Of a stretch of 22,758 bases of DNA, positions 1,314 through 22,758 are shown piece by piece. The stretch's first letter is position 1. Each line of letters begins with the position of its first letter. This DNA comes from a virus. The stretch is taken from the IMG/VR virus record IMGVR_UViG_3300030102_007266, positions 3,335 to 26,092 of that record; one strand, given 5' to 3'. A program made the position numbers and the translations under genes. Under the pieces are notes generated by a model. That model was not told the DNA's origin, searched no databases, and saw nothing but the letters and a program-made list of their open reading frames with translations.

Positions 1314-3589
1314 AAAGAGATCAGATTAAAGATTATGATTTTAGTGAAGACATTCTGCCACCGCTACGGGTGTTGGAGCATTTAGATGCTCATGACCAGC
1401 GAATGGAGAGTGATCAGCCGTACATGGCGTTAGCCAAGGCGGCGTATACCACAAAGTTTTGGCGTTACATTGAGGGACAAGAGGACCTGAATGTAGCTTA
1501 TGAGATGACAAGGATTGACCAGATTGAGGTCAATAAGATCAAGCCAGCTCTGACGGGGTACCTCAGCAACTTGTATCCGAGACGGATCAAGGTTGTGGTA
1601 TCGAAGAGTCCATACACCACAGGTGATGTGGACAAAGCGGAGATGCTTGTAAATGATTGGATTAACCAGCCTTTGATGCGGGAAAGAATTATGGCAGCTT
1701 CACGCCAAGCCCTTTTGTATAAAGGAGCGGGTGCAAAGGTTGGCTATGATCCAGCAGGTGAGGGATTAGACCGTGTATGGATGCGAGTCTTCCCATATTG
1801 GGAAATGGTGCTTGACTGCGATGTCCATGACTGGGAAGACGCTCGGTTCTTTGGGCATGTAAGTTTCAAGCCTAAAGAGGAGGTGATCGATGAATACGGT
1901 CTATCTGATGATCTTGGGGGCACTTCTCGTGATGACTTTTTGGGGAGTTATCTCGTCGGATCCAAGAAGATTCGAAATTCAGATGAAGATGCTACAGGCG
2001 ATAACGAGGCTTTCGTTCGTGTACTTGAGTTTTGTAATTTGGTCGATGATTTTTATGATACCGATGGTACGAGATACAAGGGCCGGTTGGAAATATATAT
2101 ACTTGATGAAGGATATGAAGGAGAAATTAGACCAGTATATATGGGACCACTGCCCTTAGTGGACCCACGTGGTAAGCCGATGCCGCACATTGTGCCGCTG
2201 ATATTTGAACACGAGCCGGAGTATCCATACCGAGGTGTAGCTTATGCAGACCAGCTCATGCCGCAGCAGCGGGAGCTCAACACCATGCGTAGTTACATGG
2301 CTCAGGCAGCTCGACGAGATGCTCGTGTGTATCTAACTCCGAAGGGTGCATTAGATGCGGACGCTTACACAGATTTGAAAGCAGGTGAAGATGGTTTGAT
2401 CATTGAGGTGGATGAGCAGTATGCTGGAAACTTGGCAAATGTGGTGGTGCCAATCAAGCATGGACCTGTATCAGCCAATGTTCAACAAGCAATGAGTGTT
2501 GCTGAGCTGGACTTAGACCGCAATACGACCATCTCACCTGCTGCTTTGGGTCAAGTCACACAAGCCACAGCCTCAGAGATTGTAGCGATCGAAGGTCACA
2601 CACAAAGTGAGTTTGGTCGACATGCTGAGCAGAGGGACTTGTGGTTGGTACGGATCATTCAGCTTTGTTTGGCAGCGCACACTGCAGCGTTGTATGACCC
2701 GGGTGACTCAGAGGGGGCTGATGTACATGTCGACGAAGAGGGCATCGAGAAGGACAATGATGAGTTGCAAGAGGAAAGAGATGCAGCTGGCCTGAACGAG
2801 GACCCTGAAGAGTACAATCCGCACATGATGTATGACCCTGAGACAAAAGAGGGTCAGATGGCTGAAACAAAAGACGAACATGAAGAGCTTGGTGAGGCCG
2901 GATATGTACACGAAGACGAGTTGACAGACGACGAAGACGACCGCAGCATCTTGGAGCTAGCGCTTGATGTAACAGCAGAAGAGCGACAAGACGATGAGAT
3001 GCAGCGCCAAACTGAGCGTGAGATTCGATTGGTCATGCCGAATGGAGATGTGGTCATCATCACGGGAGAAGACATCGACTCAGACTTTGAGATTGGTTTC
3101 AGTGAAGCTGGTCGTAGTCCATTGGCCAATCAGGAGATGCGTGCCAACATCCTGGCGTTGTCAGACAAGATGCTTCAGTTGATGGATATTTCTAGCAAGG
3201 GTGGACCTGTAGGCCAGATGGCAGAAGAGCTACTTAAAACGATTCATGAGCGTTTCGAGTTTCCGCCTAATCTCTCGTTTGAGTATGTACAAGGTAAAGT
3301 CGCAGAGAAAGAAGAAGAGCAAGCTGCACAGCAGCAGGTCGAACAGCCACAGCCTCAGCCACAGCCAGAACCTAGCCCAAATCAAGCTGAACCAGATCAA
3401 CAACTCAGCGCTGCGATAGCGGAGATAGAGCAGATGCCGCCGCCCCAAGCGTTGCAAACGTTGGCTGAGATTTTCCAAGATAATCCTGAGGTTTTGCAGT
3501 TGATTGAGAGAGCGCTTCAGATGCCTCCTGAAGAGCAGGCTCAAGCGGTAGTAGTTATACTTGATGCGATCAAAGGAGGGCAACAATAA
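1310..3589 (+). CDS. Portal protein (head-to-tail connector), 759 residues
   Basis: This is probably the dodecameric ring at the capsid vertex that docks the terminase, conducts DNA and nucleates head assembly. It follows the terminase with an ATGA overlap, preceded by AGGAG at 1296-1300. The length suits portals of podovirus type. Visible portal-like traits are an N-terminal region rich in charged helices (PRRIKVVVSK), the FPYWEMVLDCDV segment near residues 161-172, and a helix around 318-340 (ELNTMRSYMAQAARRDAR). Two features are odd. A strongly acidic stretch of about 100 residues (roughly 463-565) interrupts the C-terminal half, before a segment with PNGDVVIITGEDI. After that comes a Gln/Pro repeat (about 675-695), then a short helical tail rich in Met, Pro, Glu and Gln. 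The acidic insert may form a disordered crown extension inside the head; that is inference. Assignment as portal is strong; the exact subfamily is not resolved. Confidence 0.94.
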   Translation: MKRDQIKDYDFSEDILPPLRVLEHLDAHDQRMESDQPYMALAKAAYTTKFWRYIEGQEDLNVAYEMTRIDQIEVNKIKPALTGYLSNLYPRRIKVVVSKSPYTTGDVDKAEMLVNDWINQPLMRERIMAASRQALLYKGAGAKVGYDPAGEGLDRVWMRVFPYWEMVLDCDVHDWEDARFFGHVSFKPKEEVIDEYGLSDDLGGTSRDDFLGSYLVGSKKIRNSDEDATGDNEAFVRVLEFCNLVDDFYDTDGTRYKGRLEIYILDEGYEGEIRPVYMGPLPLVDPRGKPMPHIVPLIFEHEPEYPYRGVAYADQLMPQQRELNTMRSYMAQAARRDARVYLTPKGALDADAYTDLKAGEDGLIIEVDEQYAGNLANVVVPIKHGPVSANVQQAMSVAELDLDRNTTISPAALGQVTQATASEIVAIEGHTQSEFGRHAEQRDLWLVRIIQLCLAAHTAALYDPGDSEGADVHVDEEGIEKDNDELQEERDAAGLNEDPEEYNPHMMYDPETKEGQMAETKDEHEELGEAGYVHEDELTDDEDDRSILELALDVTAEERQDDEMQRQTEREIRLVMPNGDVVIITGEDIDSDFEIGFSEAGRSPLANQEMRANILALSDKMLQLMDISSKGGPVGQMAEELLKTIHERFEFPPNLSFEYVQGKVAEKEEEQAAQQQVEQPQPQPQPEPSPNQAEPDQQLSAAIAEIEQMPPPQALQTLAEIFQDNPEVLQLIERALQMPPEEQAQAVVVILDAIKGGQQ
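3344..3366 (+). repeat. Short tandem repeat CAGCCW coding for Gln-Pro
   Basis: Nearly four consecutive six-base units (CAGCCA, CAGCCT, CAGCCA, then CAGCC) lie inside the portal gene and encode alternating Gln and Pro. It is in frame and flanked by more Gln, Pro and Glu codons, so it looks like a flexible linker in the portal C-terminus. Such repeats can change length by slippage; all steps of six bases would keep the frame. Confidence 0.8.
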
Positions 3590-5729: not shown

Positions 5730-6791
5730 ATGCCAACTACGTCATTGACAGTTGATAATGAACTATTGTCTGCTACCTCTATTGAGGCTGCACGTGAAGC
5801 TCGTGACCTTCGTCATGTTGTAACGCCATTTCTGGCTGAACATGCTCGAGTTCATGGTGAAGGTCAGCCCTCTCGAGGCAGTGGACACAAATGGGTTGGA
5901 TCATTCCAAACTGGAGATCACAGCAGCCCAACTCGTCGCCGTACCGGTTACGAGCAAATGAACCTTACCTTTTCAGGTGTTCTTACTCCACTCGTTCTGA
6001 CCCCCGCTGAGGTTTCATTCCCCATCGGTATCAGTGCAGTTGAGGAAGATCTGAACGGTGGTGACCTTCAGACCATCGAGCTTGCTGCTCGTCGTGCGAA
6101 GGCAACCATGAGTTCAGCCAAGCGAGCCTTTGAGCGTCAGATTATTAAAGGTGGAGAGCCTCAGTTTGAAGACTTTCATACCCTTAATGGTATTGACTTT
6201 GGAGATGGCTTCCTTGAGCACGCAGCACCTGGTTCACAAAATCATGTCATTGGTGGTTTCAGCAAAGCAACTTTCAGTGCTCTGCCTGGTGCACAAAACC
6301 AATTTTTCGACATCAACAACAGTTTCAATACCTCAGGTTTGACTGGACTGTACCGTACCATCATCAAGTCAAAAGCCCGTGCGACTGACGACCTCAATGG
6401 TCTGACCGTATTCGCTTCAGAACTTGCGATGGAAAACTACAAGCGTACCATCCAAGCCAATGAGCGTTATATGGTATCAACTGGCGATGAGCGTCTTGAT
6501 GGAACCAACATGAACCTGCTTATCAGCGGTGTTCCAGCTCATGTTTCAACCCACATGCCAGATGCTGGGTCTGCTTCGACCACTAACAAAGCATCTTTCT
6601 ACTGTGTTGATCTCAACGCAATCTACTTTATGTTCTCTAAGGTCATCCGAGATGGCTATTTCAGCATGTCTGATTTCGAGAATGTAGGTAACGGATACAA
6701 TGTCCGAGTTGCTGAAATCATGGTCCGTGGTCAGCTTTGGGTACAGTCTTGGGCTTCTTCTGCATTGCTCGTCAATGGCGAATCATTTTAA
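5730..6791 (+). CDS. Major capsid protein (HK97-like fold expected), 353 residues
   Basis: This is the main shell subunit, expected to form hexamers and pentamers of the icosahedral head. A consensus AGGAG (5719-5723) is 6 bases before the ATG. The sequence runs through a flexible Gly/Ser/Arg-rich loop (residues 45-75, SFQTGDHSSPTRRRTGYEQ), then a strand-rich section with FPIGISAVEEDLNGGD, followed by a long helix rich in Ala and Arg (spine-helix-like, about 112-135). Its C-terminal half alternates Gly-rich loops and strands and ends in a hydrophobic strand. Codon choice differs from the surrounding genes: 14 of 20 Arg codons are CGT, one is CGC, five are CGA, and none are AGA or AGG, consistent with very high expression. 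Scaffold upstream, decoration protein and terminator downstream all support the call. I cannot place it in a named capsid subfamily without a structure search. Confidence 0.92.
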   Translation: MPTTSLTVDNELLSATSIEAAREARDLRHVVTPFLAEHARVHGEGQPSRGSGHKWVGSFQTGDHSSPTRRRTGYEQMNLTFSGVLTPLVLTPAEVSFPIGISAVEEDLNGGDLQTIELAARRAKATMSSAKRAFERQIIKGGEPQFEDFHTLNGIDFGDGFLEHAAPGSQNHVIGGFSKATFSALPGAQNQFFDINNSFNTSGLTGLYRTIIKSKARATDDLNGLTVFASELAMENYKRTIQANERYMVSTGDERLDGTNMNLLISGVPAHVSTHMPDAGSASTTNKASFYCVDLNAIYFMFSKVIRDGYFSMSDFENVGNGYNVRVAEIMVRGQLWVQSWASSALLVNGESF

Positions 6792-7396: not shown

Positions 7397-8758
7397 ATGA
7401 ATGTAGCAGAGATACGCCAACGCATCTTCGATCAGATGGACTACTTTCCCGACTTACAACAGTATCGGGACAGTGTGGTTCGTCGTATAAATGAACGGTA
7501 TCAAGAGATCAATGACACGGCCCATTGGTTGTTTTTGCAGAAGGAGCATCCGCTCCAGCTCAGAAAGGACATCATAGCGACCACTGCGACCTATGATGCT
7601 TCTACAAATGATGTAAAGCTAACTGTTGATGGGACAAATAAAAGAAAGCTCGCAACAGCTTCTGGCTCAGACCTTTCGTTTAGTTTCGAAATGCAAGGAG
7701 CCCTACTTATTATTGGGACGGCAGAATATAGGATTATTGGTGTTGCCAATGAACTAACACTGTTTGTAGAGCCCTTAGATGGAGCAAGTGAGCTAACTGC
7801 AGCAGCAGAGCTCAAAGATTTTACAATACGATTTGATCGGTACAGGATGCCTGAGGACTGCATAGAGGTTCTAGGTTTTACAGACCGAGATGATGACCGT
7901 GGTCGACTACTTTACATTGACAGACGGCGAGAGGAGTTCGCATATCTTGACAGAGATAACAAAGGCGACCCCAGCACAGCTGTTGATGATGACTTTGTCT
8001 TAGACGACCCACCACTGAACACACCGACTGCCGTAGCAAGTGCAGGAGCCGGTGACTTGATCGGTGGCGAGAAATACGAATACAAATACACGATATGGCA
8101 AGAAGGTCGAGAAACACCGCCCAGCTTGAAAGTGCAAGTCACTTTGGGAGCAGCAGACAACACGGTGACCTTATCAAATATCGACAACACCGGTTGGTAT
8201 GATGCGTATCCCACACAGAGGGACTCGGGTCGTATCAAACTTATCTATCGACGCAATGTCACTCGAGATACCAAGTGGATTCTGATCGATGCTTTGACTG
8301 CGCTTGAGGTGTCCAAAACGGACATACATGAGCAGCCCAACATTGTGTTTGATGGTTACCCATTCAACGACAGCTTTCGGTATCTGAGCCCAAGTGAGCT
8401 TGAGCGATGGGAAGATGCAGGTCCCACACAGTACATCCGATTTTGGTATCGACCTGACACAGACAAGCGCATCCACATGCGATACCACTTTCGTCCCAAG
8501 GACTTGGTCGCAGACAATGATGCACCACAGTGGCCACGACAGTACCACATGTTGATCGTTCACCTGGTGCTTCAGGACATGTTCCTACAGATGCAAGACA
8601 CAGTACAATCTCAGTTGTTTGAGCGTCGAGCCAACATGATTCTTGAGCAGATGCGACGACGGTATCTGAGTCGTGACGATGTCAAGAAGCGCTTCATGAG
8701 CTGGAGTAGACCTCGTCGTTTCCGCAACATCTATGGACCACCGAGCATAACCTCATGA
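7397..8758 (+). CDS. Head-tail adaptor / tail tubular protein A-like, 453 residues, with FN3-like insert
   Basis: This is probably the ring protein that binds under the portal and seals the packaged head, comparable in place and role to T7 gp11 or P22 gp4. GGAG (7388-7391) precedes the ATG by 5 bases. Residues 1-60 are helical, with many Arg, Gln and Asp (RQRIFDQMDYFPDLQQYRDS), as in adaptor four-helix folds. Strand-rich segments follow to about 150, then RMPEDCIEVLGFTDR, a phrase I associate with podovirus adaptors. Residues about 206-310 look like a fibronectin-III-type insert (YEYKYTIWQEGRETPPS). Helices return near 379-400 (QYHMLIVHLVLQDMF) and close the fold. The stop overlaps the nozzle gene (ATGA), fitting co-assembly of the two products. 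Assignment is by pattern and gene order; the family name is uncertain, the adaptor role fairly secure. Confidence 0.84.
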   Translation: MNVAEIRQRIFDQMDYFPDLQQYRDSVVRRINERYQEINDTAHWLFLQKEHPLQLRKDIIATTATYDASTNDVKLTVDGTNKRKLATASGSDLSFSFEMQGALLIIGTAEYRIIGVANELTLFVEPLDGASELTAAAELKDFTIRFDRYRMPEDCIEVLGFTDRDDDRGRLLYIDRRREEFAYLDRDNKGDPSTAVDDDFVLDDPPLNTPTAVASAGAGDLIGGEKYEYKYTIWQEGRETPPSLKVQVTLGAADNTVTLSNIDNTGWYDAYPTQRDSGRIKLIYRRNVTRDTKWILIDALTALEVSKTDIHEQPNIVFDGYPFNDSFRYLSPSELERWEDAGPTQYIRFWYRPDTDKRIHMRYHFRPKDLVADNDAPQWPRQYHMLIVHLVLQDMFLQMQDTVQSQLFERRANMILEQMRRRYLSRDDVKKRFMSWSRPRRFRNIYGPPSITS

Positions 8759-11013
8759 GCATAAGAACCTCAAAGATGCGTGTTGCCCCTCTTCGGGGCA
8801 TGGATCAACGTTGGCAGGTCAATCCGACATCTGCCAGTAAGATCGTAGACATGACTTGGAGTGACCAAGACAGTTGGGTTCGTGCGGGTGGTTTCAGTTA
8901 CATAGTGCGAGATTATCTGCCAGATGACTGGAACGGCATTGGTGATAATACCAGCTTTACACCACAAGATGTTGTCACAGAAACTTCAGGGGCAGGTGGT
9001 GATAATGTCATCACACAACAAACATTACAAACTGCGTTCACAAGTAGTCCAACAACCAACCCATACATTAGATCAGCCTCTAGAGCCCCAATAAACGCAT
9101 ATTCACAAGAAGACGACTCACCCATAAGCCTGCATTGGTTTGCGCAGCACAATGGCGGTTTACAGTGGCTTGTGTATGAAACATCAGCAGGGAAACTGCG
9201 CTACTTTAATGGCAGCCGAGCTCCAGTGGCCCCCTGGACAGATGTGTACTACATCGACGGCAAAGCCATGGATGGGACGAACTACAAGCGCAAAGTCGTA
9301 TCAACTCCTTGGGAAGGGACACAGTTTGCCACATTTGCGGCTCGGTTGTATCTTGTTAATGGTTTCAATAAGCCGTTGGTATTTGATGGACGCAAGGCCA
9401 GTCCGGCTGGATATGACATCAGTCCTGACACGCCATCTGCGGACTTTGCAAACAATGGTGGTATTGATCGTGTGGCGCAAAGTCAGTTGTTGGGTGTTGG
9501 TTATCCAAATAATGGTAGTACTGACATTACATCAACATTTCGCTACAGGGTTTCATTCATCAATGAAAGAGGCAACGAGAGCCCACTGTCGCAACCAATA
9601 CAAATATCTGTAACAGCATCAAGAACGAATAGTGTCCAGACACAGTCTTTGATCACAGTCGAGATACCACGTGGACCTGAAGGTACAGTGGCTCGACGTA
9701 TATATAGAACTCAGAACGCTCGAGATGTGAGTGGTGATCTACGAACAAAAGTTTTTTCGGAAGAGTTCTTCTTTCATTCAGAGATTCAAGACAACGTCAC
9801 AGATATGTTTATAGATGGCTTGCCAGACAGTGCGCTTGGTTCATTGGTTGATGATTTGGATTTTGGTGTGTTTCCACAACAATCATCTATGATTGCCTTA
9901 TTCAAAGGTCGAAGCTTTGTAGCTGGAGAAAACGACAACATTGTCAGATACAGTCGTCCGAACTTTCCCGAGATGTTTCCTGTTGATAATCAGCTTGATT
10001 TGTCAGACACCTCTGGTTCTCGTATTACTGCATTGTATGCGACCAAGAACAGTTTGGTTGCATTTAAAGATAGAGGCATCTACCTAATCAAAGGCGACAG
10101 CACAGATGGGTTCTTTGCTCAGACACTCACTCGTGACATAGGTTGTTTGGCGCCTTCTAGTATCCGAGAGGTACCAGGTTTGGGATTGATGTTCTTATCT
10201 TCGGATGGCATCTATGTGTTGGAGGGTGCGCTTGAGAACACAGGTACACGCACAGCTGTTGTCAAGATGAGCACACCAATTCGAGATTTGATTCGTGATA
10301 TTAACTTTAGTGCTGTCGAGAACTGTCGCAGCATCATATATCATAGAGATCGTGAGTATTGGTTATCGGTTCCCATCAAAGGTAATCAAAGAGCGACACG
10401 CACTCTCAAGTTTTCGTATGAGGTTGGGGCATGGTCTTACATGGAGGACATGCCCATTAAAGACATGACAGAAACAGAAGACCACAGAGGTTACTTGTTT
10501 TTTGTTTCTAATGAGGCAGCGACCAAAGGCATTCATCACTACAATAGAGGATACCTGACCAAAGCTGGTACAGCATTGCAGACTCAATACGAAACATCAG
10601 ACATTCCTTTCGGGAGTGTGTATGAAAACTTTGTGCCGGTCAGGGTGCAAGGTCGAATCATCGGATATGGCAACAATGACCTTGAGATGAACTTTACGAC
10701 GAACCGTGAGCTCACTCAAGCATACGAAACCAACAAGACCACACAACAGAAGCGACCTTTGGAAGACAAGAACATCTCAGTCTATGGCACCACCGCCTGG
10801 GGAGATGGCAGTGTCTATGCACAGCATAGACCTGTATATGCACGGTTCGACATCAACACGATGCACAAAGGTCCAGTCAACGAGGTCAAGATTTCCTTCA
10901 CACCGACATCAGGACGGATTGAACTGCTTGAGTTTCAGATGGAGGCTCGCATTGGTTCTCGTCGGGATGTTATAAACCTCACATCTAAGATGGGAGGCAC
11001 GGAAACAAGATGA
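8755..11013 (+). CDS. Tail nozzle / tail tubular protein B-like hub, 752 residues
   Basis: This is probably the large beta-rich nozzle that extends the portal channel and carries the tail appendages. It overlaps the adaptor gene by ATGA. The N-terminus carries a pattern typical of such proteins: LRGMDQRWQVNPTSASKIVD (residues 13-32), then WVRAGGF. Residues about 259-325 look like the same fibronectin-III-like module seen in the adaptor (FRYRVSFINERGNESPLS, then RRIYRTQ). From about 380 to 500 there are propeller-like repeats: GRSFVAGENDNIVRYSRP, ALYATKNSLVAFKDRGIYLI, and MFLSSDGIYVLEG. The C-terminus is strand-rich and ends with EARIGSRRDVINL. No signal peptide, protease or glycosidase motif was recognised. 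Next come three small beta proteins likely to attach to it. Function is inferred from propeller-type sequence, size and position after the adaptor. Confidence 0.85.
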   Translation: MSIRTSKMRVAPLRGMDQRWQVNPTSASKIVDMTWSDQDSWVRAGGFSYIVRDYLPDDWNGIGDNTSFTPQDVVTETSGAGGDNVITQQTLQTAFTSSPTTNPYIRSASRAPINAYSQEDDSPISLHWFAQHNGGLQWLVYETSAGKLRYFNGSRAPVAPWTDVYYIDGKAMDGTNYKRKVVSTPWEGTQFATFAARLYLVNGFNKPLVFDGRKASPAGYDISPDTPSADFANNGGIDRVAQSQLLGVGYPNNGSTDITSTFRYRVSFINERGNESPLSQPIQISVTASRTNSVQTQSLITVEIPRGPEGTVARRIYRTQNARDVSGDLRTKVFSEEFFFHSEIQDNVTDMFIDGLPDSALGSLVDDLDFGVFPQQSSMIALFKGRSFVAGENDNIVRYSRPNFPEMFPVDNQLDLSDTSGSRITALYATKNSLVAFKDRGIYLIKGDSTDGFFAQTLTRDIGCLAPSSIREVPGLGLMFLSSDGIYVLEGALENTGTRTAVVKMSTPIRDLIRDINFSAVENCRSIIYHRDREYWLSVPIKGNQRATRTLKFSYEVGAWSYMEDMPIKDMTETEDHRGYLFFVSNEAATKGIHHYNRGYLTKAGTALQTQYETSDIPFGSVYENFVPVRVQGRIIGYGNNDLEMNFTTNRELTQAYETNKTTQQKRPLEDKNISVYGTTAWGDGSVYAQHRPVYARFDINTMHKGPVNEVKISFTPTSGRIELLEFQMEARIGSRRDVINLTSKMGGTETR

Positions 11014-12226: not shown

Positions 12227-12924
12227 TGCCATTACCAAGTACCTTTATTCCGTTTACCAACAACTCAACTGTAACTGCAACAAGTGTGAATAGTCGTGTT
12301 GAGGATGTTGAACAGTTCATCAATGGTGACATTGAGACATCTGATCTACCCATAACTCCATGGGTGGACAGTTCAATCATAGTTGGTCCTGAGTTTTATG
12401 GTGCCCCAGCTCCTAGAGTTCAACTTGTGAGTTCTGATGTGCATTACAGACGAGAAACAGGTGGGACCAACTCATTATTCTTTCATTATGAACTTTCCAC
12501 TGAATACATCCCCATACCCGGGTTGAATGCCACGATTCATGTAGCCATACCTGATGGTTATCCAAGGGACAATGTTGATGTACATATTAGGGCAAGCTTC
12601 TTTGCTGAAAATAGCAATTCAGTGCTGGGTGTTCGTACTGCTTTTAATGCGAATACTAATTCCTTAGTGACACAAAGTGCGGAGTTCTCTCTATTTGCCA
12701 ATGAAACAAGATTGATTGGTACCGCACGTAGAGTGTATGCCAAAACAGATGCAGATCATGATATGACAGCACAAAATATAAGTATGGTTGGTGTTGCTAG
12801 GTTGAGTCGAGGCATACATAATTTGGGTGTACGAATCAAACCTATTGACCCTGGCAACATACAAGATTGGCAGCATACAGTTATACGACACAGAACGCTA
12901 AATATTGAGGTACATTACCTATGA
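12226..12924 (+). CDS. Small beta-rich appendage-like protein 3, 232 residues
   Basis: The start overlaps the preceding stop (TAATG). AAGGA at 12208-12212 lies 13 bases upstream, too far to be efficient, so coupled re-initiation is likely. The N-terminus has NSRVEDVEQFINGDIETSDL (residues about 24-43) followed by a Trp-containing PWVDSSIIVGPEFYG segment. The Asn-Gly-Asp-Ile...Asp-Leu phrase is the clearest fibre-base-like motif of the trio. Residues about 60-225 are almost all strands, in a jelly-roll-like pattern (HVAIPDGYPRDNVDVHIRAS). No glycosidase or esterase signature was recognised. It probably builds an appendage together with the two proteins encoded just upstream, possibly carrying the receptor-binding surface, since it is the largest of them. 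Confidence 0.79.
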   Translation: MPLPSTFIPFTNNSTVTATSVNSRVEDVEQFINGDIETSDLPITPWVDSSIIVGPEFYGAPAPRVQLVSSDVHYRRETGGTNSLFFHYELSTEYIPIPGLNATIHVAIPDGYPRDNVDVHIRASFFAENSNSVLGVRTAFNANTNSLVTQSAEFSLFANETRLIGTARRVYAKTDADHDMTAQNISMVGVARLSRGIHNLGVRIKPIDPGNIQDWQHTVIRHRTLNIEVHYL

Positions 12925-12926
12925 GG
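12923..12926 (+). promoter_or_regulatory. Ribosome-binding site fixing the ATG at 12932
   Basis: GAGG at 12923-12926 lies 5 bases before the ATG at 12932. The same frame is open back to a TTG at 12905 but has no comparable site there, and that start would overlap the previous gene by 20 bases. The ATG at 12932 is therefore the better start. Confidence 0.75.
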
Positions 12927-12931
12927 TTGAC

Positions 12932-13348
12932 ATGGCATACAGTGATGTAAAATTAGATTCAGACGAAAAGAAAGGGGTTGCCTCTTCATCTGCCGTGGGT
13001 GGATTAGGCGGAGCAATGACCGGAGCTGCTTTGGGATCGGCTATCGTCCCTGGAGTGGGTACTTTGATTGGTGCCGCAGCTGGACTGGCAGTCGGTTCAA
13101 TCAGCAGTGCTTTGGCAGGAACTCGACAAGCCAAGGCAGAGAAGCAATTGGCACAAGACATTGCCAAGCAGCAGAAGGCAGCTCGAGCCGATCAAGTAGC
13201 GATCAACCGATCAAGTCAAGCTCGTCAGGAACTGCGTGACCGAAAGCGTCAGCAATACATGTTCCAACCCGAAGACGAAGCATTTCTAACCGCAACTGGA
13301 GGAAGCTCCGGTTTTGACCGCTTTATGCGCAGTAAGTACGGAGCATAA
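12932..13348 (+). CDS. Glycine-zipper membrane-active internal virion/ejection protein, 138 residues
   Basis: This is probably a small ejection protein that inserts into the cell envelope during infection, comparable in size and layout to T7 gp14-type proteins. Residues 21-62 are a long run of Gly, Ala, Val, Ile and Ser with small residues every few positions (GGAMTGAALGSAIVPGVGTL), the pattern of glycine-zipper transmembrane hairpins. A basic, Gln/Ala/Arg-rich helix follows (about 63-108). The C-terminal tail (FDRFMRSKYGA) matches the style of small virion proteins that end in a short amphipathic segment. There is no signal peptide. A toxin or holin role is less likely because the gene lies among virion genes, with large ejection-like proteins following. 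Confidence 0.82.
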   Translation: MAYSDVKLDSDEKKGVASSSAVGGLGGAMTGAALGSAIVPGVGTLIGAAAGLAVGSISSALAGTRQAKAEKQLAQDIAKQQKAARADQVAINRSSQARQELRDRKRQQYMFQPEDEAFLTATGGSSGFDRFMRSKYGA

Positions 13349-13350
13349 TC

Positions 13351-14589
13351 ATGGCTGCACCAATTAAATATTTTGATTTGACTGAAGGTGGAAAAGGAAA
13401 CTTTTTTGAGGTTGACCCAAATACTTTTCAAGGCACTTATGTTTATGCCGATGGAAGGCGAGAACCTATTACAGCCGGAGATTCAATCGCCGCTGCACGA
13501 CAGCAATACCAAGCAAATCTAGAACTCCAAGGAATACAACAGAGAAATGTTCCTACCGCAGCGGCTGCTGCACCAGTCGCAAGGACACAAGCGCCACTCT
13601 CAGCCACAGATGCAGCGGCTCTTCAAGATTTCAACAAGTTCTCACAGCGCAGGGACCTAACTCGTTCTTTGGGACCAGCGGCTCTCATAGGTGGTATTGG
13701 AGCGGCAGCTCAACTTGGTCAAGTGATTGCACCTCGTAGACTAGGCAACATACAAGACAGATATGCTGCAGAAGAGCTGGATCGATTGCAAGCTCTTGAG
13801 CGCCGTGGTCAACTTGGCCTCACAGAAGGCGAGAGAGGCGAAATGGAGCGTCAGATGATGGATCCTGTACGAACCATGTCTCGAGACATACAACGGGCAG
13901 GTGAAGCGGAGAGAGCCTCTTCTGGCGTTGTTACATCAGCAGCATCCCAAGTGAGAGCAGACAGGGAGCGTCAACGCTTGATTGCAGATCAAGCACGTCA
14001 AGCTGGAGCTCAGATAGCTCAAGCAGATATGGCGAAAGCAGACCAACAGATGCGAAAGATGGAGCAGTTGATTGCTTACAAGGGTCAGCGTTCCCAACAA
14101 GCCATTGCCAATCTACAGAAGACAGGCATGGACATTGCATATCTTGCTGGGTTGGCAAGAGCCGGAAAAGCCATGGAGCAGATTGATCCATCAGGATTAA
14201 TGAGTGTTGCACCTGACGCAGATTCAGCAGTCCGTCTATCTAAGCAACTCACAAGAGCTCAAGACTTTGGTGGTATCTCTCAGCGTGAGATTGAGCAGAT
14301 TGCCAAGAGAAACGATATAAGTTCAGATGGTGTAAAGTTTTTGATTGAGAACTATGCCACACAGACTCAACCAAGCAGTCTTGCTGATACCTTTACACAA
14401 GGCCGAAGGACTGAAGCAGAGCAAACAGAAACTGAGGTTGCTAGAATGACACCGGCATCAGCAGGCTTTGATTTGAATGAACTTTTTAAACGAGAGCAGC
14501 TTGGCTTGCCTTTGTCGCCTGAGGAGCAAGAGTACCTTGATTCCATCAAAAGGGCACGAGAATTTGAAAGTAAGAGGGATGCACAATGA
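13351..14589 (+). CDS. Helical internal virion (ejection) protein, 412 residues
   Basis: This is probably an internal core protein ejected into the host with the DNA. GGAG at 13340-13343 is 7 bases before the ATG, and only two bases separate it from the previous gene. An N-terminal strand-rich segment (1-45) is followed by an Ala/Pro/Gln linker, then a Gly-rich hydrophobic stretch (about 107-128, GPAALIGGIGAAAQLGQVIA). Next is a long helical region rich in Ala, Gln, Arg and Met. In it, residues 171-175 read DPVRT within a helix-rich phrase (GEMERQMMDPVRTMSRDI). The same DPVRT core recurs near the start of the giant protein further down. The C-terminus is charged and probably disordered. No transglycosylase motif is visible. 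Confidence 0.82.
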   Translation: MAAPIKYFDLTEGGKGNFFEVDPNTFQGTYVYADGRREPITAGDSIAAARQQYQANLELQGIQQRNVPTAAAAAPVARTQAPLSATDAAALQDFNKFSQRRDLTRSLGPAALIGGIGAAAQLGQVIAPRRLGNIQDRYAAEELDRLQALERRGQLGLTEGERGEMERQMMDPVRTMSRDIQRAGEAERASSGVVTSAASQVRADRERQRLIADQARQAGAQIAQADMAKADQQMRKMEQLIAYKGQRSQQAIANLQKTGMDIAYLAGLARAGKAMEQIDPSGLMSVAPDADSAVRLSKQLTRAQDFGGISQREIEQIAKRNDISSDGVKFLIENYATQTQPSSLADTFTQGRRTEAEQTETEVARMTPASAGFDLNELFKREQLGLPLSPEEQEYLDSIKRAREFESKRDAQ

Positions 14590-16238
14590 TACAGCCATAC
14601 TTTGACCCCACAAACTATTTCCAAGGCGGCTCAGTCTTCAGTCAATACCTTCAGGGTTTTGTCAAAGAGCGCAGTGCCATGAACAAGCAGATGATGGAGA
14701 TAGCTTTGGCTCAGTCAGACCCAAGCTTTCTGCAAGATCAGATTCAGATCATGAACAAGAACATCATCGAGCTGGAGAAGGCTAAGGCGAAGGCTCTGCA
14801 AGGTGATACCAAATACAACAAGCAACTGATGAGCCTGGTGACACAACAGATGAACAAAGAGTCACAAGGAATACTCGAGGTTGGTAGAGAGCAAGTCAAG
14901 CGAGGTGGAAGGGCTTCTATAGCGATGACGAGGGCCGCAGGAATGGTATCCGGTGTTCTTGCGGATTCAAGTCTGTCACCTGACGAGAAAAATCAACAAC
15001 TGAAAGCTTTATTTGGTGAAACTACTGATGAAGATCTAATGAAAGCTTTGCGAATAGAAATAGAGGACGCTGCTAACACAGATACAAATATTAACTTGCA
15101 AACAGCTGTGCCAGGTTCTGTTCCTAAAGTGAATAGAGCTATCTTTATGAGTCAAGGTGGTGCTGATCGAGTTCGTATGCCCGATGCTCGCACACAAACC
15201 AAAAAAGCCTTGCAGATTATGGAAGAGATAGGTGGTGGCGGTACCATGTCACCTCAAGATCAAGCAGCTCTAACAGCTCAAATAGATTCAGCAATTGCCA
15301 AGTATGAAACTCAAAGAGCTGGATACGAACAGCAACTGGCAGACCTGCAAGAGGGAGGCGTTGATCCTTTCTCTGGGTTCAGCCGAAACTACATGCTTGA
15401 CAATCCGTTCATTCAGATGAGCCGTTCCCAAGGGAAGGTAGATGCGTTGGCCTCAGCCATTGAAGCTGCACAGCAGGAAGATTTCCGCACACCCTTTGCT
15501 CGGGTTGAGCGTGAGGCAGCTACACCTCGAGACATCTTGAGTGGGAATGTGTATGATGAAGACGATGAGTTCTTTGGTGGTACTTTTGGAGAGTATTATC
15601 AAAAGAGAATGTCTGATTTCGGAGTACCGATGACACCTGATCCCCGTTTTGACGCTGATGAGTTGGCAATTATGAACAGGCAAGGCATGAGGCAATCTAC
15701 AACTGAAAGGAAACCTGAAATGGTAACAGAGGGTACTACTTTTCAACCATTGCGTATATTTGCTGATCCTGATATAAAACCTCAACCAGAAGGCTACAAA
15801 TCCTTTGCAGATCGAAGACAGGCAGAGATAGAGCAGGGAATGTTAACACCATCGGGCAGAGATTCTGACATAGTGGTTAGAGATCCAAAAACCGGTATCT
15901 TTAAATTACAAAAAGAATTGGTAACACCAACTGTTGATTTCACAGATCTTGGATCAGATGTGATGGGTGACCAAACTTTTCCTGAGCCCAAATATAGTGG
16001 TCCACCAGCGGTGTCTATGGACAATCGTCCAGCTTTGGCACCACCTGTTCGTGAATCAAATATATATGATGCTGAACCATTAAAACCCTTCCTTAACAGA
16101 GGCGATATTTATTATCTAATCAGAGATGGTGAAGCTCATTTTGTTCCACGTACACGAGAAGCAGTTGATGCTTTGCGTAAACAAATAGGAAGAGAACCAG
16201 GTCCCGCACAAACTGCATTTGAGGTATTCCCACGATGA
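14586..16238 (+). CDS. Probable internal virion protein, helical, 550 residues
   Basis: The ATG overlaps the previous stop (ATGA), suggesting coupled synthesis. The N-terminal 130 residues are strongly helical and rich in Gln, Met and Lys (FLQDQIQIMNKNIIELEKAK), with coiled-coil character. A second helical block lies around 205-260 (AIAKYETQRAGYEQQLADLQ). The C-terminal third is Pro-rich, acidic and low in predicted structure (EDDEFFGGTFGEYY, then several proline-rich turns). No enzyme motif, signal peptide or membrane helix is evident. Gene order and helix content match the second or third internal core protein of short-tailed phages such as T7, but I could not see sequence similarity that proves this. 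It may be a core scaffold for the giant protein. Confidence 0.78.
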   Translation: MIQPYFDPTNYFQGGSVFSQYLQGFVKERSAMNKQMMEIALAQSDPSFLQDQIQIMNKNIIELEKAKAKALQGDTKYNKQLMSLVTQQMNKESQGILEVGREQVKRGGRASIAMTRAAGMVSGVLADSSLSPDEKNQQLKALFGETTDEDLMKALRIEIEDAANTDTNINLQTAVPGSVPKVNRAIFMSQGGADRVRMPDARTQTKKALQIMEEIGGGGTMSPQDQAALTAQIDSAIAKYETQRAGYEQQLADLQEGGVDPFSGFSRNYMLDNPFIQMSRSQGKVDALASAIEAAQQEDFRTPFARVEREAATPRDILSGNVYDEDDEFFGGTFGEYYQKRMSDFGVPMTPDPRFDADELAIMNRQGMRQSTTERKPEMVTEGTTFQPLRIFADPDIKPQPEGYKSFADRRQAEIEQGMLTPSGRDSDIVVRDPKTGIFKLQKELVTPTVDFTDLGSDVMGDQTFPEPKYSGPPAVSMDNRPALAPPVRESNIYDAEPLKPFLNRGDIYYLIRDGEAHFVPRTREAVDALRKQIGREPGPAQTAFEVFPR

Positions 16239-16672
16239 ACTACGATATGAAAGACGATGATGAAATGATTGTAGACGGTATGCATGCGCTTGAGCAGGGC
16301 AAATACTACCGTAAGTACATCACAGATAGGTTCATGGTCGATGACCTTCTAGAAACCGAATATGGGCTATGTGCGGTGATTGTAGACCAAGAGATGGGTG
16401 TCAAGGACAAGTACCATACTGGTGATGAGCTGGCTGACGGAACGGTTGAGGTGTTGCAAACGGGTGTACTTTTTAAGCCGCACCGGGCTGACCTTGCGAG
16501 CGTGCCTTTGCACTCCAAAATGGAGATGTCACCGCTGTACGGACACATTGGTGACCGTGCCTACAGTCAGATGGTAGAGGACATCCGACATGAGCCTTTG
16601 GAGCTTTTTGGTGATGAAGATGATGAGGGATTGGTTATAATGGTTCTGAACGATCAGGTTGCTCAGAACTAG
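16235..16672 (+). CDS. Unrecognised small acidic protein, 145 residues
   Basis: Function is unknown. It overlaps the preceding gene (ATGA) and ends 8 bases before the giant frame. It is acidic at both ends, with an N-terminal Asp/Glu/Met stretch (MKDDDEMIVDGM) and a C-terminal GDEDDEGLVIMVLN segment. Between them lie strand-like sequence (YGLCAVIVDQEMGV; GTVEVLQTGVLF) and His/Met-rich loops. There is one Cys, no membrane segment, and no motif I can name. Its place inside the ejection block suggests a chaperone, loading factor or minor core protein for the adjacent large proteins; this is inference from context. Confidence 0.8.
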   Translation: MNYDMKDDDEMIVDGMHALEQGKYYRKYITDRFMVDDLLETEYGLCAVIVDQEMGVKDKYHTGDELADGTVEVLQTGVLFKPHRADLASVPLHSKMEMSPLYGHIGDRAYSQMVEDIRHEPLELFGDEDDEGLVIMVLNDQVAQN

Positions 16673-16680
16673 GATGACAT

Positions 16681-19600
16681 ATGGCTCTGCCCAAGAAGCT
16701 TACTGAAGAAGCTCGTAACGAATTATTAGAAAGATTTTATGGACTACCACCTAGCGACTTTGAAGACGCCATTTTAGGTGATCCAAGTATTCGATCATAC
16801 AAGCTCACAGGAGATCAAGAAACAGAACTGCTTGAGGATATGAACAACCGCAGAGAGATTCGTGAAATCTCAGAAATGGTCGATCCTGTAAGAACCAATG
16901 CTCAGTCGATAGTAAGAGATCAAACTGGAACTGTGGTTGACATTGACAAGTTTCAAGCACGATATGCGGCATCTGAACAAGATATGCGTGACATAGAATC
17001 CCAGCTCAGAGAGGTAGACATCCAAGCATTGGCAGCTGTACCAGAAGGTGATTACAACTCTTTGGGGTCTAAGCTTCGAGACAGCACATCACTGAGTGAA
17101 AAATATAAGTTATTGATCGACAACCAAGTAGAGATCAGAACGGCAGATTATGCACAAGAGTATAAAGATTTTTATGGTCAAGATTTCGAAGAGTTGACCA
17201 ATGAACAGCAGGCAGCACACCTCGCATTACTTAGGGAAACAGTTATAGCCAGTTACTATGCGCCAGTTTATCTAGGAATGAACAAAGCGCCTGCAAAAGG
17301 TAAGTTCTACATTGATGACATTATTGCAAGCCCAAATGTAAATAAGAGCGTCGTTGATGTAGCTAAAAAAATCAAAGATTTGAGCTTTCAGCAGGGTCTA
17401 GTTGAGATCAAAGACCTTCAGGGCTACAGCGATCTGATTAACGTAAGCAAGCGTGTTGCAAGTCCAACAATAAGAATCGACCTCAATAAGTTGGCATCAA
17501 AGGAAGCAACAGATGAAGATTTGGATGAGGCGATTGAACAGATAGCTAAGTATGGTGCTTCTACTCTTTTGGATCCAAACGTTCCCAAAATGGAGCAAGC
17601 TGCATTATTGTCTGAAGCCATCAACAAATTGAGGGAGCGACCAAACTATACCGATAGTTTGGAAGAAGACATACTAATAGAGGGTTTCGGTGGCGAAACA
17701 ATTATTCCAGCACAATCCCTAAGGGATCTTGACTACATCAGGAGTCAAGAGGCAGATTCTGTTGAAGCACTTAAAAGACAGAAGCAATACGAGCAGATTA
17801 GAGCAGCCAAGTATCGGTTTGAGCAAGGACTGAAGGATCTACAGCCTGAAGATATAAATCAGGAAAGAATCAAAGAGCTTTCACAAAGATACATTGACCT
17901 AGCAGTGGCCAAAGAGCATGTAACGCTTCGTGGTCTGATCGACGAGGACACAGATGTATTGGCAACAGAACAAACCGTACAAGCTCAAACCTTGCCATAT
18001 TTGGGTGCTGTGTTGCAAGCCTCAGATCCCGTGGCAGGAACAAGGCAATTCAATAATGAATTGTGGAGTGAGATGTCAACAAGCTTGGCTAGAAATAAAA
18101 ATTTAAGTGACATCCAATATGAAGATGCACTTGAGCTTATGAATGAAGCATTTGCTGAACGTCAAAGTAAAATGCTGAAAAAGACCATAGGAACCGACTC
18201 TGTAATTACATTACCTGGGGATACAACAAAGGATGCGAGACGATTTGGAGATGTCCTAAGTGATTTGACATTACAAGATGAAGAAACTGTAGAACGCACA
18301 GCCTTTACAACACGAGAGATGGTTCGTGACATCCCGTTCGCCGATCAGTTTGTAGATCTCACGGTAAGTGAAATAGATGTCGCCTTACGAGCAATGCAAA
18401 ATGCATTGCGTCGTGAGATTAAGAATGCGAAAGACAATAGCAAAGATACGTCAAGGTTGGAAAAAAACCTCAAAAATTTAGAACTCATTATGCGCCTCAA
18501 TCCAATATTGGAAAAAAGAGAAGAGTTCATTGATCCCTTCACTAATACCAAAAAGATGTTGAGTGGAGATTTTCGTGAGCGTCTTAAGGGGTTTTCAGTA
18601 GCTTTAAATCAAATCCCTGAGGATGACTATGAAGATTTATTACGACAGTTCTTTCCTAATTCAGAGGTCAATCTCATCGTAGACAGCTACAAGAAAAATG
18701 AACTGCGGATACTGTTTAACAACCTCACCGACATGTCAGAGTACATGAATGAAGCAGCTGACATAATGGGACAAACACCAAACGAGGGTTGGGATGCTGT
18801 TCGTAAGGATCCAGCTTTTCAAGATAGTTTGAGAGCTGGGGATATAGAAGCTGCGATGGAGAGTTTCGGTGAATATAACTTAAATGACATGCCAAAGTAT
18901 CTTGTTGACCAAGCAGACTTGAATGGAGTGAGCGAACAAGACTTTACCAAACCCATAAAGACATTGTGGAATCAAACCAAGGATACGGACAATCCTATAT
19001 TCACCATCAATGATTTGTTGTTTGCTGATGAGTTTCGTAACGATGTCAGTTCTCATCGAGCTGTTATGACGGGAATCACTGAGGTATTGTCTGACTTGAC
19101 AACTCGCACAGAATACGACATGAACGACGATGTTGTTGTAATCAGACCCAGCTCAAGCACCATGAATGTAATGAATGTATTAGGTGCTGGTAAAGAGATC
19201 TTGGAGGTCATGGATCCTGACTTAGCTATGTTCATGGCTTTACCTTTAGCTCCGTTCGCATATACACTAGACATCGATAGAATCGTTGAGTCCATATCAC
19301 CTGAAACACGCATGAAGGGATTGGTGTCCGGTGGTGTTCAAGAAGACATTCGTCAAAACATGCGAAACAATCGAAAGGACTTGTCTATTGATGAGATTGA
19401 CGAAATAGTTGCTCGGGTCACTGCATATATGACCAACAATAACATGGTCGAGTTTGCAGATTATGAACAACTAAATAAATACACTATGAGTAACTTTGAA
19501 GGACTTCAGGCCGATCAACTCTTTGATGGTCACTCAATCAAGCTTCTTCTTGGGACGGACAGATACTCAACAACATTTTTGGGAATACCGTACAAGCCCA

Positions 19601-22600
19601 CATTCATAGCGCCAAACTCACTGCAGGAAACATTGTTGGCTCAAAATGGCAAGTATGTTCCAATGTTCGATTATAAGAATACAACTACATTTGATCGAGC
19701 ATTGGCGATGTTTACGGTAGGTCAAGAAGGTGCAATGGGCTTCTCACGCTTTCGTGCTGATCGAATGGGATACTCACCTTTGACACCCGGGTATGTCACA
19801 GCTCAAGGTATTGGACTGGCAAGTGATGTATTGGTAGATCCAATCGATAAGGCTGCAGGTGGCGTAACCAAAGGTTTTGGGGCTGTCGGTTCAGGTATAA
19901 CTCGCATCAGAAGATTGGGCGACACGGTAACAATACCACGCCTTTTCAACTATACGATGATGGAATTGTCAACCAACCAAGGCATCAGTGGCGCTGTGGG
20001 TCGTTCGTATGTTGATGTATTAAGGTATAGGAAAGACGGCTTCCGTCAAACACTAGACTCTCAAATGCGTCAGTCCATCGAAGAAGAGTTGGCAGCATAT
20101 AAGCCTTTGTCTGTGAAGAGTGCTATAGATGTGGCAGGTCGCTCTGCTGCTATTGCGGGATTATCGTTACTGATTGGTCCAGAAGCTCTATTAGAGGTTG
20201 GCACTCAAACAGCCATGACTGGTCTTGCACGAGGCACAGCAACCGGTATAGGTCAAATCCCAGAGACAAAAGCGAGTGTATCTAACCAATTACAGTTTGG
20301 TCTAGCAAGGGCGATTCAAGACACCACCGGCTTCAAAGGGTATTACGATTATGTTGCTGGTCAAGCTTACCTTGGGAGTGAAGGTAACCTTAGCATGCTT
20401 ACCCCAAGTATGATTTCTGTGCCTGCTGAAAACATGATCAGGCTGTATCACCACGATGATTTGCGACAAACACACAAAGCTGGGGACAATCTGTTCAATC
20501 CCAACAATGCCAATAAGTCAGATGTTTTGGCATATCATGAAGCTAGGTTTGCCAAGCTGGGAATAGATGTACGCTTGGTACAAACTGCTTTTGAGCAAAC
20601 CTCTGCTCAACAACATCCCAAAATGTTCAAAGCTTTGAAAATGATTGGCAGAGACTCAGTTGAGTATAATGAGTTTGTAAAATACGCTAAGGTTTATGGT
20701 CTAGATAAAATATTTGATGATTTGGGAACGACTCCGCTCATAAAAGAACGAATGTATAAACTGTTCATCGCACATGCCGGAGGTCAGGACATTCAGACAT
20801 TTGTTCGTAAATTGACAGTTGAGTACAAGGACACTCTCAAAACTCCAAATATCAAAGAATCAGTGCTCAAGAAGCTTAGACAATCTCAAATATTTAAGCT
20901 TACAAAACAAGAAACGGAACAACTGCTTGACTTACCAGACGACTTAGGTGTTTCTATAGATTTATCAGAAATGGCAACACAGCAGATATATGACAAATCT
21001 ATATATGATTCACTTACAAAGGCTGAACAGCATTACTTGAAGAGATACGGGATTTCGTATGGTGACAATGTCAGTGTTGATATGGTGGAAAAGCTTATTG
21101 AACTGAGAGAGAACACCACAGTCAAGTATATTGAAACAGATGATGGTAAAGCTTATCAGATGGGTGTTCGATTCAAAGGTGAATCCTGGAGAGCAGATGT
21201 TAGAGTATCTGTAACAGACGAAGGGTTGCAAGTAGATGAGGTATATCGAAAACTTGACTCTTACCAAGCAAAAAAAGTTGAAGACGGTGAAATCACAGAA
21301 CCGCCTGATGCATTGTTCATACAAGAGTTGATAAGGTATTTAGCTGAAACGGATGCTCCATTTGACAAGCTGGTTGTTCGTGTGCCTGAGAATGTGAAAG
21401 TTGAAGATTTTACTAAGCTTTATACCCGTTCTATTGGGATCAGCGATGATTCTGTTGCTTCTGTGGATAATGGTTACAGTATCTCTCTTGCTAAACCCAA
21501 AGAGATGTATGCAGAGGTGTCTGCGGGAAGCAGATCAATCATATCTGAGCTGAAGCCAATCAAGAAGCAACCTTTTGTAACTGAAACGGTTTTGAGGGCA
21601 TCACAAAGGACCATCCAAGATTTACAGAAGCAGCAACTAGACACAAATGAGTTTCTATCTAAGCTTCTAAGTGAAAAGGATATAGGTGACATAAACGATC
21701 GGTTGACTCTTGGAGCCAAGCCCGAAGATGTAATCGCCGATTTTTATGGACCTAAGCAACAAGCCGTCGAAGAATTTATACCAAACAGACAAAACGAAGA
21801 ATATGTTGCCAATGCTAAAAGTCGATACAGAGAACAAAATCAAGTTTTGGTCGATACACAAAATCGTTTGAAGAGAGCAGAAACAACATATAAAAGTTTG
21901 GGCGGTGATCCAACAGTATTGGAGCCATCGACAAAACTCGAAACCAGTAACATACAAGAAAATATAAAAGAGGCCATATCTACAGAGCGTCAAAACCTTG
22001 CAAGTGAAGATATAAACAACATTTTAGAAGAACAACAAGCAGCACAGTTTGTTCATGTCAAAGATGATGGAACACATGTATACAAGGGACCAGCTTCCGG
22101 TAATATACAAGTCAAGTTTTTCGAAGGCCCATCCGGAGAACAAGTTCTGACTATCGAAAATATCAACAACATACCAATAGATAAGCTGATAAATGCAAGA
22201 ATTCAAGAGATAATAAATGCAGATCAAGCGGAGTCGATAGCAAATCAAATTAACAATGCTCTCGAAAGACAAGCTGATTTTCGACGATTGTCAGACATGA
22301 CATCAAATGAGTATAGGAATCTTGCTTCACTGATTCAGTATGCCATAGATAATGGCATATCTATTTCGTATCCCACAGCGATGGATGGTACTGTTGGTGA
22401 GGTTATACTAAATCAGTTGGCTTATGTCTTGGGTGTAGATCGCTTTAATAGTAAAGTTGAGCACCTGGTAACACATAACAACATACTGTATCGTGCCATC
22501 AACCTTGATCCTATCACAGCTGCACAGCGCACTCGAAAATCAATCACTCCACAGACTCCACGAAAAATTGTAGGTGATGAGTTTGGTCGAGCTCAAAAGG

Positions 22601-22758
22601 TCATCAACGAAGCCGAAGAGGCATCAGAAGCAGACATTGAAATCTTAGAGAAATGGATTGGTGATGCTGAGCCCGAAAGCTACTTGACTGTTGTCAGAAA
22701 GAATACAAATGTTCGTATGTTAGGGATGAATAAAGATCAACTCCGACTCCATATCAGA
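16681..22758 (+). CDS. Giant virion-associated (ejection-type) protein, 3' partial, at least 2026 codons
   Basis: One frame runs from ATG 16681 to the right edge without a stop; I translated all 2026 codons. AGGA (16671-16674) precedes the ATG by 6 bases. It is mostly helical, acidic and rich in Asp, Glu, Gln and Asn. Near the start, residues 57-80 contain EMVDPVRTNAQSI, echoing the 412-residue protein. A hydrophobic stretch lies at 845-861 (DPDLAMFMALPLAPFAY), a Gly-rich part at 1041-1080 (GIGLASDVLVDPIDKAAGG), and a second hydrophobic run at 1153-1190 (AAIAGLSLLIGPEALLEVG). Residues about 1481-1605 form a compact alpha/beta-looking segment, and 1840-1905 a further strand-rich one. I saw no lysozyme/transglycosylase, protease or single-subunit RNA polymerase motif. 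Context suggests the largest core protein ejected with the DNA; domains may lie beyond the edge. Codon use is more A/T- and AGA-rich than in the coat gene. Confidence 0.9.
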   Translation, partial: MALPKKLTEEARNELLERFYGLPPSDFEDAILGDPSIRSYKLTGDQETELLEDMNNRREIREISEMVDPVRTNAQSIVRDQTGTVVDIDKFQARYAASEQDMRDIESQLREVDIQALAAVPEGDYNSLGSKLRDSTSLSEKYKLLIDNQVEIRTADYAQEYKDFYGQDFEELTNEQQAAHLALLRETVIASYYAPVYLGMNKAPAKGKFYIDDIIASPNVNKSVVDVAKKIKDLSFQQGLVEIKDLQGYSDLINVSKRVASPTIRIDLNKLASKEATDEDLDEAIEQIAKYGASTLLDPNVPKMEQAALLSEAINKLRERPNYTDSLEEDILIEGFGGETIIPAQSLRDLDYIRSQEADSVEALKRQKQYEQIRAAKYRFEQGLKDLQPEDINQERIKELSQRYIDLAVAKEHVTLRGLIDEDTDVLATEQTVQAQTLPYLGAVLQASDPVAGTRQFNNELWSEMSTSLARNKNLSDIQYEDALELMNEAFAERQSKMLKKTIGTDSVITLPGDTTKDARRFGDVLSDLTLQDEETVERTAFTTREMVRDIPFADQFVDLTVSEIDVALRAMQNALRREIKNAKDNSKDTSRLEKNLKNLELIMRLNPILEKREEFIDPFTNTKKMLSGDFRERLKGFSVALNQIPEDDYEDLLRQFFPNSEVNLIVDSYKKNELRILFNNLTDMSEYMNEAADIMGQTPNEGWDAVRKDPAFQDSLRAGDIEAAMESFGEYNLNDMPKYLVDQADLNGVSEQDFTKPIKTLWNQTKDTDNPIFTINDLLFADEFRNDVSSHRAVMTGITEVLSDLTTRTEYDMNDDVVVIRPSSSTMNVMNVLGAGKEILEVMDPDLAMFMALPLAPFAYTLDIDRIVESISPETRMKGLVSGGVQEDIRQNMRNNRKDLSIDEIDEIVARVTAYMTNNNMVEFADYEQLNKYTMSNFEGLQADQLFDGHSIKLLLGTDRYSTTFLGIPYKPTFIAPNSLQETLLAQNGKYVPMFDYKNTTTFDRALAMFTVGQEGAMGFSRFRADRMGYSPLTPGYVTAQGIGLASDVLVDPIDKAAGGVTKGFGAVGSGITRIRRLGDTVTIPRLFNYTMMELSTNQGISGAVGRSYVDVLRYRKDGFRQTLDSQMRQSIEEELAAYKPLSVKSAIDVAGRSAAIAGLSLLIGPEALLEVGTQTAMTGLARGTATGIGQIPETKASVSNQLQFGLARAIQDTTGFKGYYDYVAGQAYLGSEGNLSMLTPSMISVPAENMIRLYHHDDLRQTHKAGDNLFNPNNANKSDVLAYHEARFAKLGIDVRLVQTAFEQTSAQQHPKMFKALKMIGRDSVEYNEFVKYAKVYGLDKIFDDLGTTPLIKERMYKLFIAHAGGQDIQTFVRKLTVEYKDTLKTPNIKESVLKKLRQSQIFKLTKQETEQLLDLPDDLGVSIDLSEMATQQIYDKSIYDSLTKAEQHYLKRYGISYGDNVSVDMVEKLIELRENTTVKYIETDDGKAYQMGVRFKGESWRADVRVSVTDEGLQVDEVYRKLDSYQAKKVEDGEITEPPDALFIQELIRYLAETDAPFDKLVVRVPENVKVEDFTKLYTRSIGISDDSVASVDNGYSISLAKPKEMYAEVSAGSRSIISELKPIKKQPFVTETVLRASQRTIQDLQKQQLDTNEFLSKLLSEKDIGDINDRLTLGAKPEDVIADFYGPKQQAVEEFIPNRQNEEYVANAKSRYREQNQVLVDTQNRLKRAETTYKSLGGDPTVLEPSTKLETSNIQENIKEAISTERQNLASEDINNILEEQQAAQFVHVKDDGTHVYKGPASGNIQVKFFEGPSGEQVLTIENINNIPIDKLINARIQEIINADQAESIANQINNALERQADFRRLSDMTSNEYRNLASLIQYAIDNGISISYPTAMDGTVGEVILNQLAYVLGVDRFNSKVEHLVTHNNILYRAINLDPITAAQRTRKSITPQTPRKIVGDEFGRAQKVINEAEEASEADIEILEKWIGDAEPESYLTVVRKNTNVRMLGMNKDQLRLHIR

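Follow-up and report, generated by a model that had tools for sequence, protein, structure and literature searches.

The open frame at the end of the stretch of DNA analysed here (the window, 22,758 nucleotides; frame at 16681–22758, + strand) probably encodes the N-terminal ~2,000 residues of an ejection protein of ~5,000 residues (~550 kDa) of the N4 virion RNA polymerase (vRNAP)/polyvalent type, a reading to which we assign a probability of roughly 0.78. Our best reading of the giant is that of a polymerase-less, N4-vRNAP-like polyvalent protein of an uncultured marine phage lineage, which would be packaged in the virion and ejected ahead of the genome; ejection is suggested by its position, by the homology of its C-terminal domain and by its lack of cysteine.

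The frame starts with an ATG at 16681 and runs for 2026 codons to the window edge, with a strong coding signal and a probability of remaining open by chance of ~1e-53 at the base composition of the window, confirming the giant unfinished frame of at least 2026 codons described in an earlier note on this DNA. The window corresponds to positions 3335–26092 of a 36,855-bp IMG/VR record (G000), and its right edge is a scaffold gap of exactly 10 N (contig 26093–26102), not the contig end. All N runs of the record (L002:3325–3334, L003:9194–9203 and L003:13424–13433) are exactly 10 N long; besides that at the window edge they lie within the terminase gene, upstream, and within the second large frame (ORF2), and such runs also occur in several relatives. 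This recurrence suggests an assembler's placeholder for gaps of unknown true length, so that gap lengths and reading frames across the N runs are unreliable, and the stop called mechanically a few codons past the window edge is an artefact of placeholder Ns read in the wrong frame.

Immediately past the gap, a single frame with a strong codon-usage signal is open for 345 codons (contig 26103–27140); it is followed, in another frame and with an overlap of only 20 nt, by the 2624 codons of ORF2 (contig 27121–34995), the coding switching frame within ~50 bases at the end of the 345-codon piece (L003 10189–10241). Extending the contig to find the stop, as had been proposed, therefore yielded the continuation past the gap together with a frame break between the 345-codon piece and ORF2. 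The supposition that the frame closes the virion gene cluster did not hold, since the 345 codons and ORF2 follow it and are themselves followed by cement/decoration-like genes; downstream of ORF2 lie three small genes (L003:18182–19872; contig 35081–36771), the last of which has weak matches to phage cement/head decoration proteins and encodes several cysteines. Judged by its nearest relatives, the window holds about the first 40% of a ~5,000-residue product, which may be split in two in G000.

A search with the terminase large subunit (TerL) recovered 53 IMG/VR contigs, the longest of 75 kb, and one with the capsid gene (5730..6791) recovered three close contigs. The three nearest relatives each have a single ORF at the same position: that of G005, which contains no N run, is 5092 aa long, that of G003, with one N run, 5251 aa, and that of the third 4473 aa. 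Most of ORF2 can be aligned to residues 2780–4844 of the G005 giant (E 1e-91). Taken together, these single ORFs and the ORF2 alignment identify the window ORF, by position, as the N-terminal part of a ~5,000-residue product. ORF2 was matched in 20 of the 49 whole related records searched, in open frames of 2,354 to 5,381 codons, and the giants of the family range from 2,345 to 5,251 aa. That the window ORF and ORF2 are two separate genes, with both products ejected, is a variant of our explanation and not exclusive of it, and we regard it as possible though somewhat disfavoured. The frame change in G000 would fit such an arrangement, as would the adjacent same-strand ORFs of ~1,170–1,270 aa and 2,480–2,610 aa present in G016, G014, G021 and G022; against it stand the single ORFs of the three nearest relatives, an ORF2 ATG that lacks a Shine-Dalgarno sequence and lies only 11 codons into its open frame, and the position of the sole cysteine of the 345-codon piece, which falls among the final eight residues, where the two frames overlap.

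Conservation across all the giants is highest in a region of ~430 residues towards the end of ORF2, with the pattern ...AIDNxxRVSxF..EL..G.SP..AA...R...FDYSDLT.FEK...R..F.FYSY.RKN...NP.RV... An hhalign comparison of a profile of 18 giants with one of 15 N4-like vRNAPs aligned this region near the vRNAP C-terminus with an E value of 5.7e-6 and a score of 53.6; controls reached at most 20.4 in 60 column shuffles (shuffled E no better than 0.13) and 13.6 with reversed profiles. On this profile evidence, the C-terminal domain of the giants is homologous to the extreme C-terminus of the N4 vRNAP. The family phrog_2206 likewise matches the extreme C-terminus of the G005 giant and the metallopeptidase (MPTase) part of relatives, with no match in G000. 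A model of the domain has a pLDDT of 57 overall (75–93 in its best parts), and its Foldseek matches are phage proteins annotated with large polyvalent-associated domains; LPD38, considered as a name for the domain, gave no match, and neither did its control, so that absence is not shown. In N4 itself, according to unpublished work cited in a review (PMC4496689), encapsidation depends on the C-terminal domain of the vRNAP and genome injection on its N-terminal domain, and Iyer et al. describe the MPTase-bearing region as required for encapsidation (PMC5512222).

The same domain occurs near the end of proteins of ~590–2,440 aa (mostly 890–1,450 aa) on other phage contigs, mostly of 15–47 kb. At L137, L142, L146, L148 and other loci, on phage contigs of ~40 kb, it ends cysteine-free proteins of 890–1,160 aa which PHROGs labels as tail fiber (phrog_19395); these are probably ejection proteins.

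Neither the window ORF (0/2026) nor ORF2 (0/2624) encodes cysteine, giving a product of ~4,990 aa devoid of this residue, and the giants of 17 relatives contain 8 cysteines in 57,242 aa. Within the window ORF no TG[CT] codon occurs in frame, whereas the other two frames contain 51 and 119; ~50 would be expected. The three genes at 12905–16238 also lack cysteine, as do N4 gp50 (0 in 3500 residues) and the C-termini of all 15 N4-like vRNAPs. Among T7, SP6, P22 and N4, the 12 ejection proteins have one cysteine in 10,351 aa, against 103 in 14,973 aa for the other virion proteins (Fisher p 2e-22, indicative because residues within one protein are not independent). Cysteine absence is an empirical, not an official, criterion for podophage ejection proteins, and it describes the giant. 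The signature is not exclusive, since scaffold proteins share it: the scaffold-like gene of the window (4661–5710) is cysteine-free in 38 of 38 family homologs (11,141 residues in total), and the T7, SP6 and P22 scaffolds lack the residue too; the signature supports ejection without proving it. We found no statement of such a rule in the ejection-related literature examined, which does not show that it is unreported.

The virion/ejection setting proposed for the frame is supported by its neighbourhood. The window opens with the terminase large subunit (3..1313, +), cut by the window start and by the 10-N gap just upstream, and the portal protein (1310..3589, +; weak P22_portal match). The scaffold-like gene is followed by the putative major capsid protein (5730..6791, +), assigned from gene order, conservation and a weak head-protein PHROG match, and by a 752-aa virion protein (8755..11013, +) matching phrog_511 (internal virion protein) and phrog_3287 (virion structural protein). 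A 147-aa glycine-zipper protein with a helical tail (12905..13348, +) is a candidate outer-membrane channel ejection protein; it resembles N4 gp52 (PMC12633501) in size, order and layout, with no sequence homology detected. The next two proteins, of 412 aa (13351..14589, +) and 550 aa (14586..16238, +), are candidate periplasmic-tunnel ejection proteins. Directly upstream of the giant, a conserved 145-aa protein with one cysteine (16235..16672, +) serves as a synteny marker. The giant thus follows the terminase, portal, capsid and tail genes, among the late virion genes, a location used as a criterion for polyvalent proteins, and the order capsid – tail – glycine-zipper – two cysteine-free proteins – giant parallels that of N4 gp56 to gp50.

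Length, helical character and late-gene position would also suit a tail tape-measure or other structural tail protein, and the glycine-zipper neighbour scores against tape-measure profiles. We consider this very improbable: the window ORF and ORF2 have no tape-measure match, and among the 15 giants or pieces scanned a single one gives a weak match (E 8e-4); the C-terminal domain is shared with the N4 vRNAP; the nearest cultured TerL (27%) is that of the short-tailed phage CRP-7; and the spread in giant size across the family would be unexpected for a tape measure of one tail type.

A different possibility is that the giant is a virion RNA polymerase proper, its polymerase domain lying in the N-terminal half and diverged past recognition. 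It has the same C-terminal domain as N4 gp50, belongs to the same size class, is likewise cysteine-free and takes the same place in the cassette. However, the phrog_2206 matches in the giants of relatives are confined to the MPTase and extreme C-terminal parts, and none falls in the polymerase; PF00940 has no match in 16 family contigs, seven of them of 72–75 kb, in a search whose control matched N4 and CRP-7 and was weak for the vRNAP itself (E 0.007); and the single-subunit (T7-like) RNA polymerase that defines an N4-type vRNAP was not found. A DxDGD in ORF2, considered as a multi-subunit RNA polymerase motif, occurs once and is not conserved, and was rejected. An unrecognised polymerase is accordingly very unlikely.

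At residue 840 ORF2 contains HENGH, followed downstream by T..G.E..A, and none of the residues H, E, H, G and E varies among the 12 aligned members retaining the motif. We interpret this as a putative zincin-like HExxH...E site, the motif being observed and activity being inferred from it. The order strand–strand–helix (HExxH)–strands–helix (Glu) fits a zincin in a poor model of the region, and a PDB fold search with this weak model gave no match. The site is lost in about half of the relatives, so catalysis is not essential in the family; some members without it have another HExxH upstream, matching the N4 MPTase part of phrog_2206.

Among relatives, the G045 giant has an ART-PolyVal match and other giants have LysM and GNAT matches, that to LysM being reported in one of 15 scanned giants or pieces; these matches suggest several unrelated effector domains per polypeptide. 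Modules seem to be inserted within the C-terminal core: by eye, the G032 giant (L068) has a LysM-like repeat apparently inside its conserved part. No named LPD or effector domain was detected in G000's own sequence. A second large ORF of 1700–2237 codons with ART-PolyVal is present in G022:608–4339 (−; L078/L130), G012:41524–43944 (−; L017) and G016:34286–38731 (−; L021), in G012 together with an N4-type MPTase region.

Such modularity, rapid divergence and the ART, LysM and GNAT matches might also describe a polyvalent protein that is produced and active within the infected cell and never packaged. The virion operon position, the N4-type C-terminal domain and the strict cysteine avoidance, common to known ejection proteins, make this quite improbable, and we favour an ejected giant.

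Divergence within the family is uneven. Identity to the nearest relatives declines along the module, being 73–78% for the capsid protein, 69–75% for TerL, 57–64% for the portal, 41–44% for the 752-aa virion protein and 40–46% for the 145-aa protein, yet the window ORF has no detectable identity to those relatives though capsid genes are ~75% identical, and its profile comparison with their N-terminal halves was no better than shuffles; it is either a homolog that has diverged or a module that has been exchanged. Family, structure-sequence and tblastn searches with the window ORF gave no match and no recognisable domain or fold, bearing out the earlier note's impression that no familiar catalytic motif is visible there; GNAT-like repeats seen by eye at its end have no profile support. 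No closer relatives that could resolve the junction were found, no host was indicated by matches in bacterial genomes, and the C-terminal core has no match among the large proteins of CRP-7. The suggestion that the frame is something undescribed must be tempered, given the N4-vRNAP C-terminal domain and HExxH of the half then unseen and the homologous giants of related contigs: the giant is not wholly undescribed, and it is its N-terminal, window part that has no recognisable domain.

The comparators named at the outset, N4-type vRNAPs and polyvalent proteins, proved to be the right ones. N4 gp50 (Schitoviridae; phrog_2206) is alike in its homologous extreme C-terminal domain, an HExxH in its C-terminal part, absence of cysteine, giant size and place as last gene of the capsid–tail–ejection cassette; it differs in length (3,500 versus ~5,000 residues), in its polymerase domain, which was not found here, and in an unrelated N-terminal half. 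Family capsid, portal and TerL profiles gave nothing significant to the corresponding N4 gene, the measure used for membership of the Schitoviridae. The phage polyvalent proteins described by Iyer et al. (2017, PMC5512222), which carry zincin-like MPTase, ART and LPD domains, share the late-gene location and zincin motif and, through relatives, a multidomain character suggested by the ART-PolyVal, LysM and GNAT matches, but differ in that G000's own sequence has no detectable LPD or effector domain. The inner-membrane ejection proteins T7 gp16 and SP6 gp37 likewise end the ejection cassette and completely lack cysteine, but are ~4-fold smaller and have known peptidoglycan-hydrolase domains.

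By analogy with these systems, the giant would be made late and packed in the capsid via its C-terminal domain, a packaging role taken from N4. At infection the channel across the outer membrane and periplasm would be built by the glycine-zipper protein and the two proteins encoded after it (PMC12633501). The giant would pass through the tail and this channel last, as small domains strung loosely together, the absence of cysteine allowing passage without disulfides in the periplasm. Once delivered, it would act in the envelope or cytoplasm as infection begins; the zincin-like site may cleave either the chain itself, into units, or proteins of the host, and the fast-diverging N-terminal half would supply membrane-docking or effector modules. 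In G000 the product would be either a single chain, whose frame the assembly gap and a small indel have interrupted, or two chains ejected together.

A broader interpretation, which we offer tentatively, is that in this lineage an injected protein of the N4 kind lost its polymerase, or had it replaced, and became a cysteine-free delivery vehicle of ~0.5 MDa with undescribed effectors in its fast-evolving N-terminal half, and that cysteine avoidance is a general rule for proteins threaded through a tail and an oxidising periplasm, by which ejection proteins could be recognised from their composition alone. If right, the giant would be among the largest proteins proposed for threading through a phage tail; its lineage comprises dozens of contigs, and no close cultured member was found. 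The N4-type C-terminal (packaging) domain would then be separated from the polymerase, so that the part driving encapsidation becomes testable. The cysteine rule, simple and strong in the four model phages, could flag ejected proteins in unannotated phage genomes.
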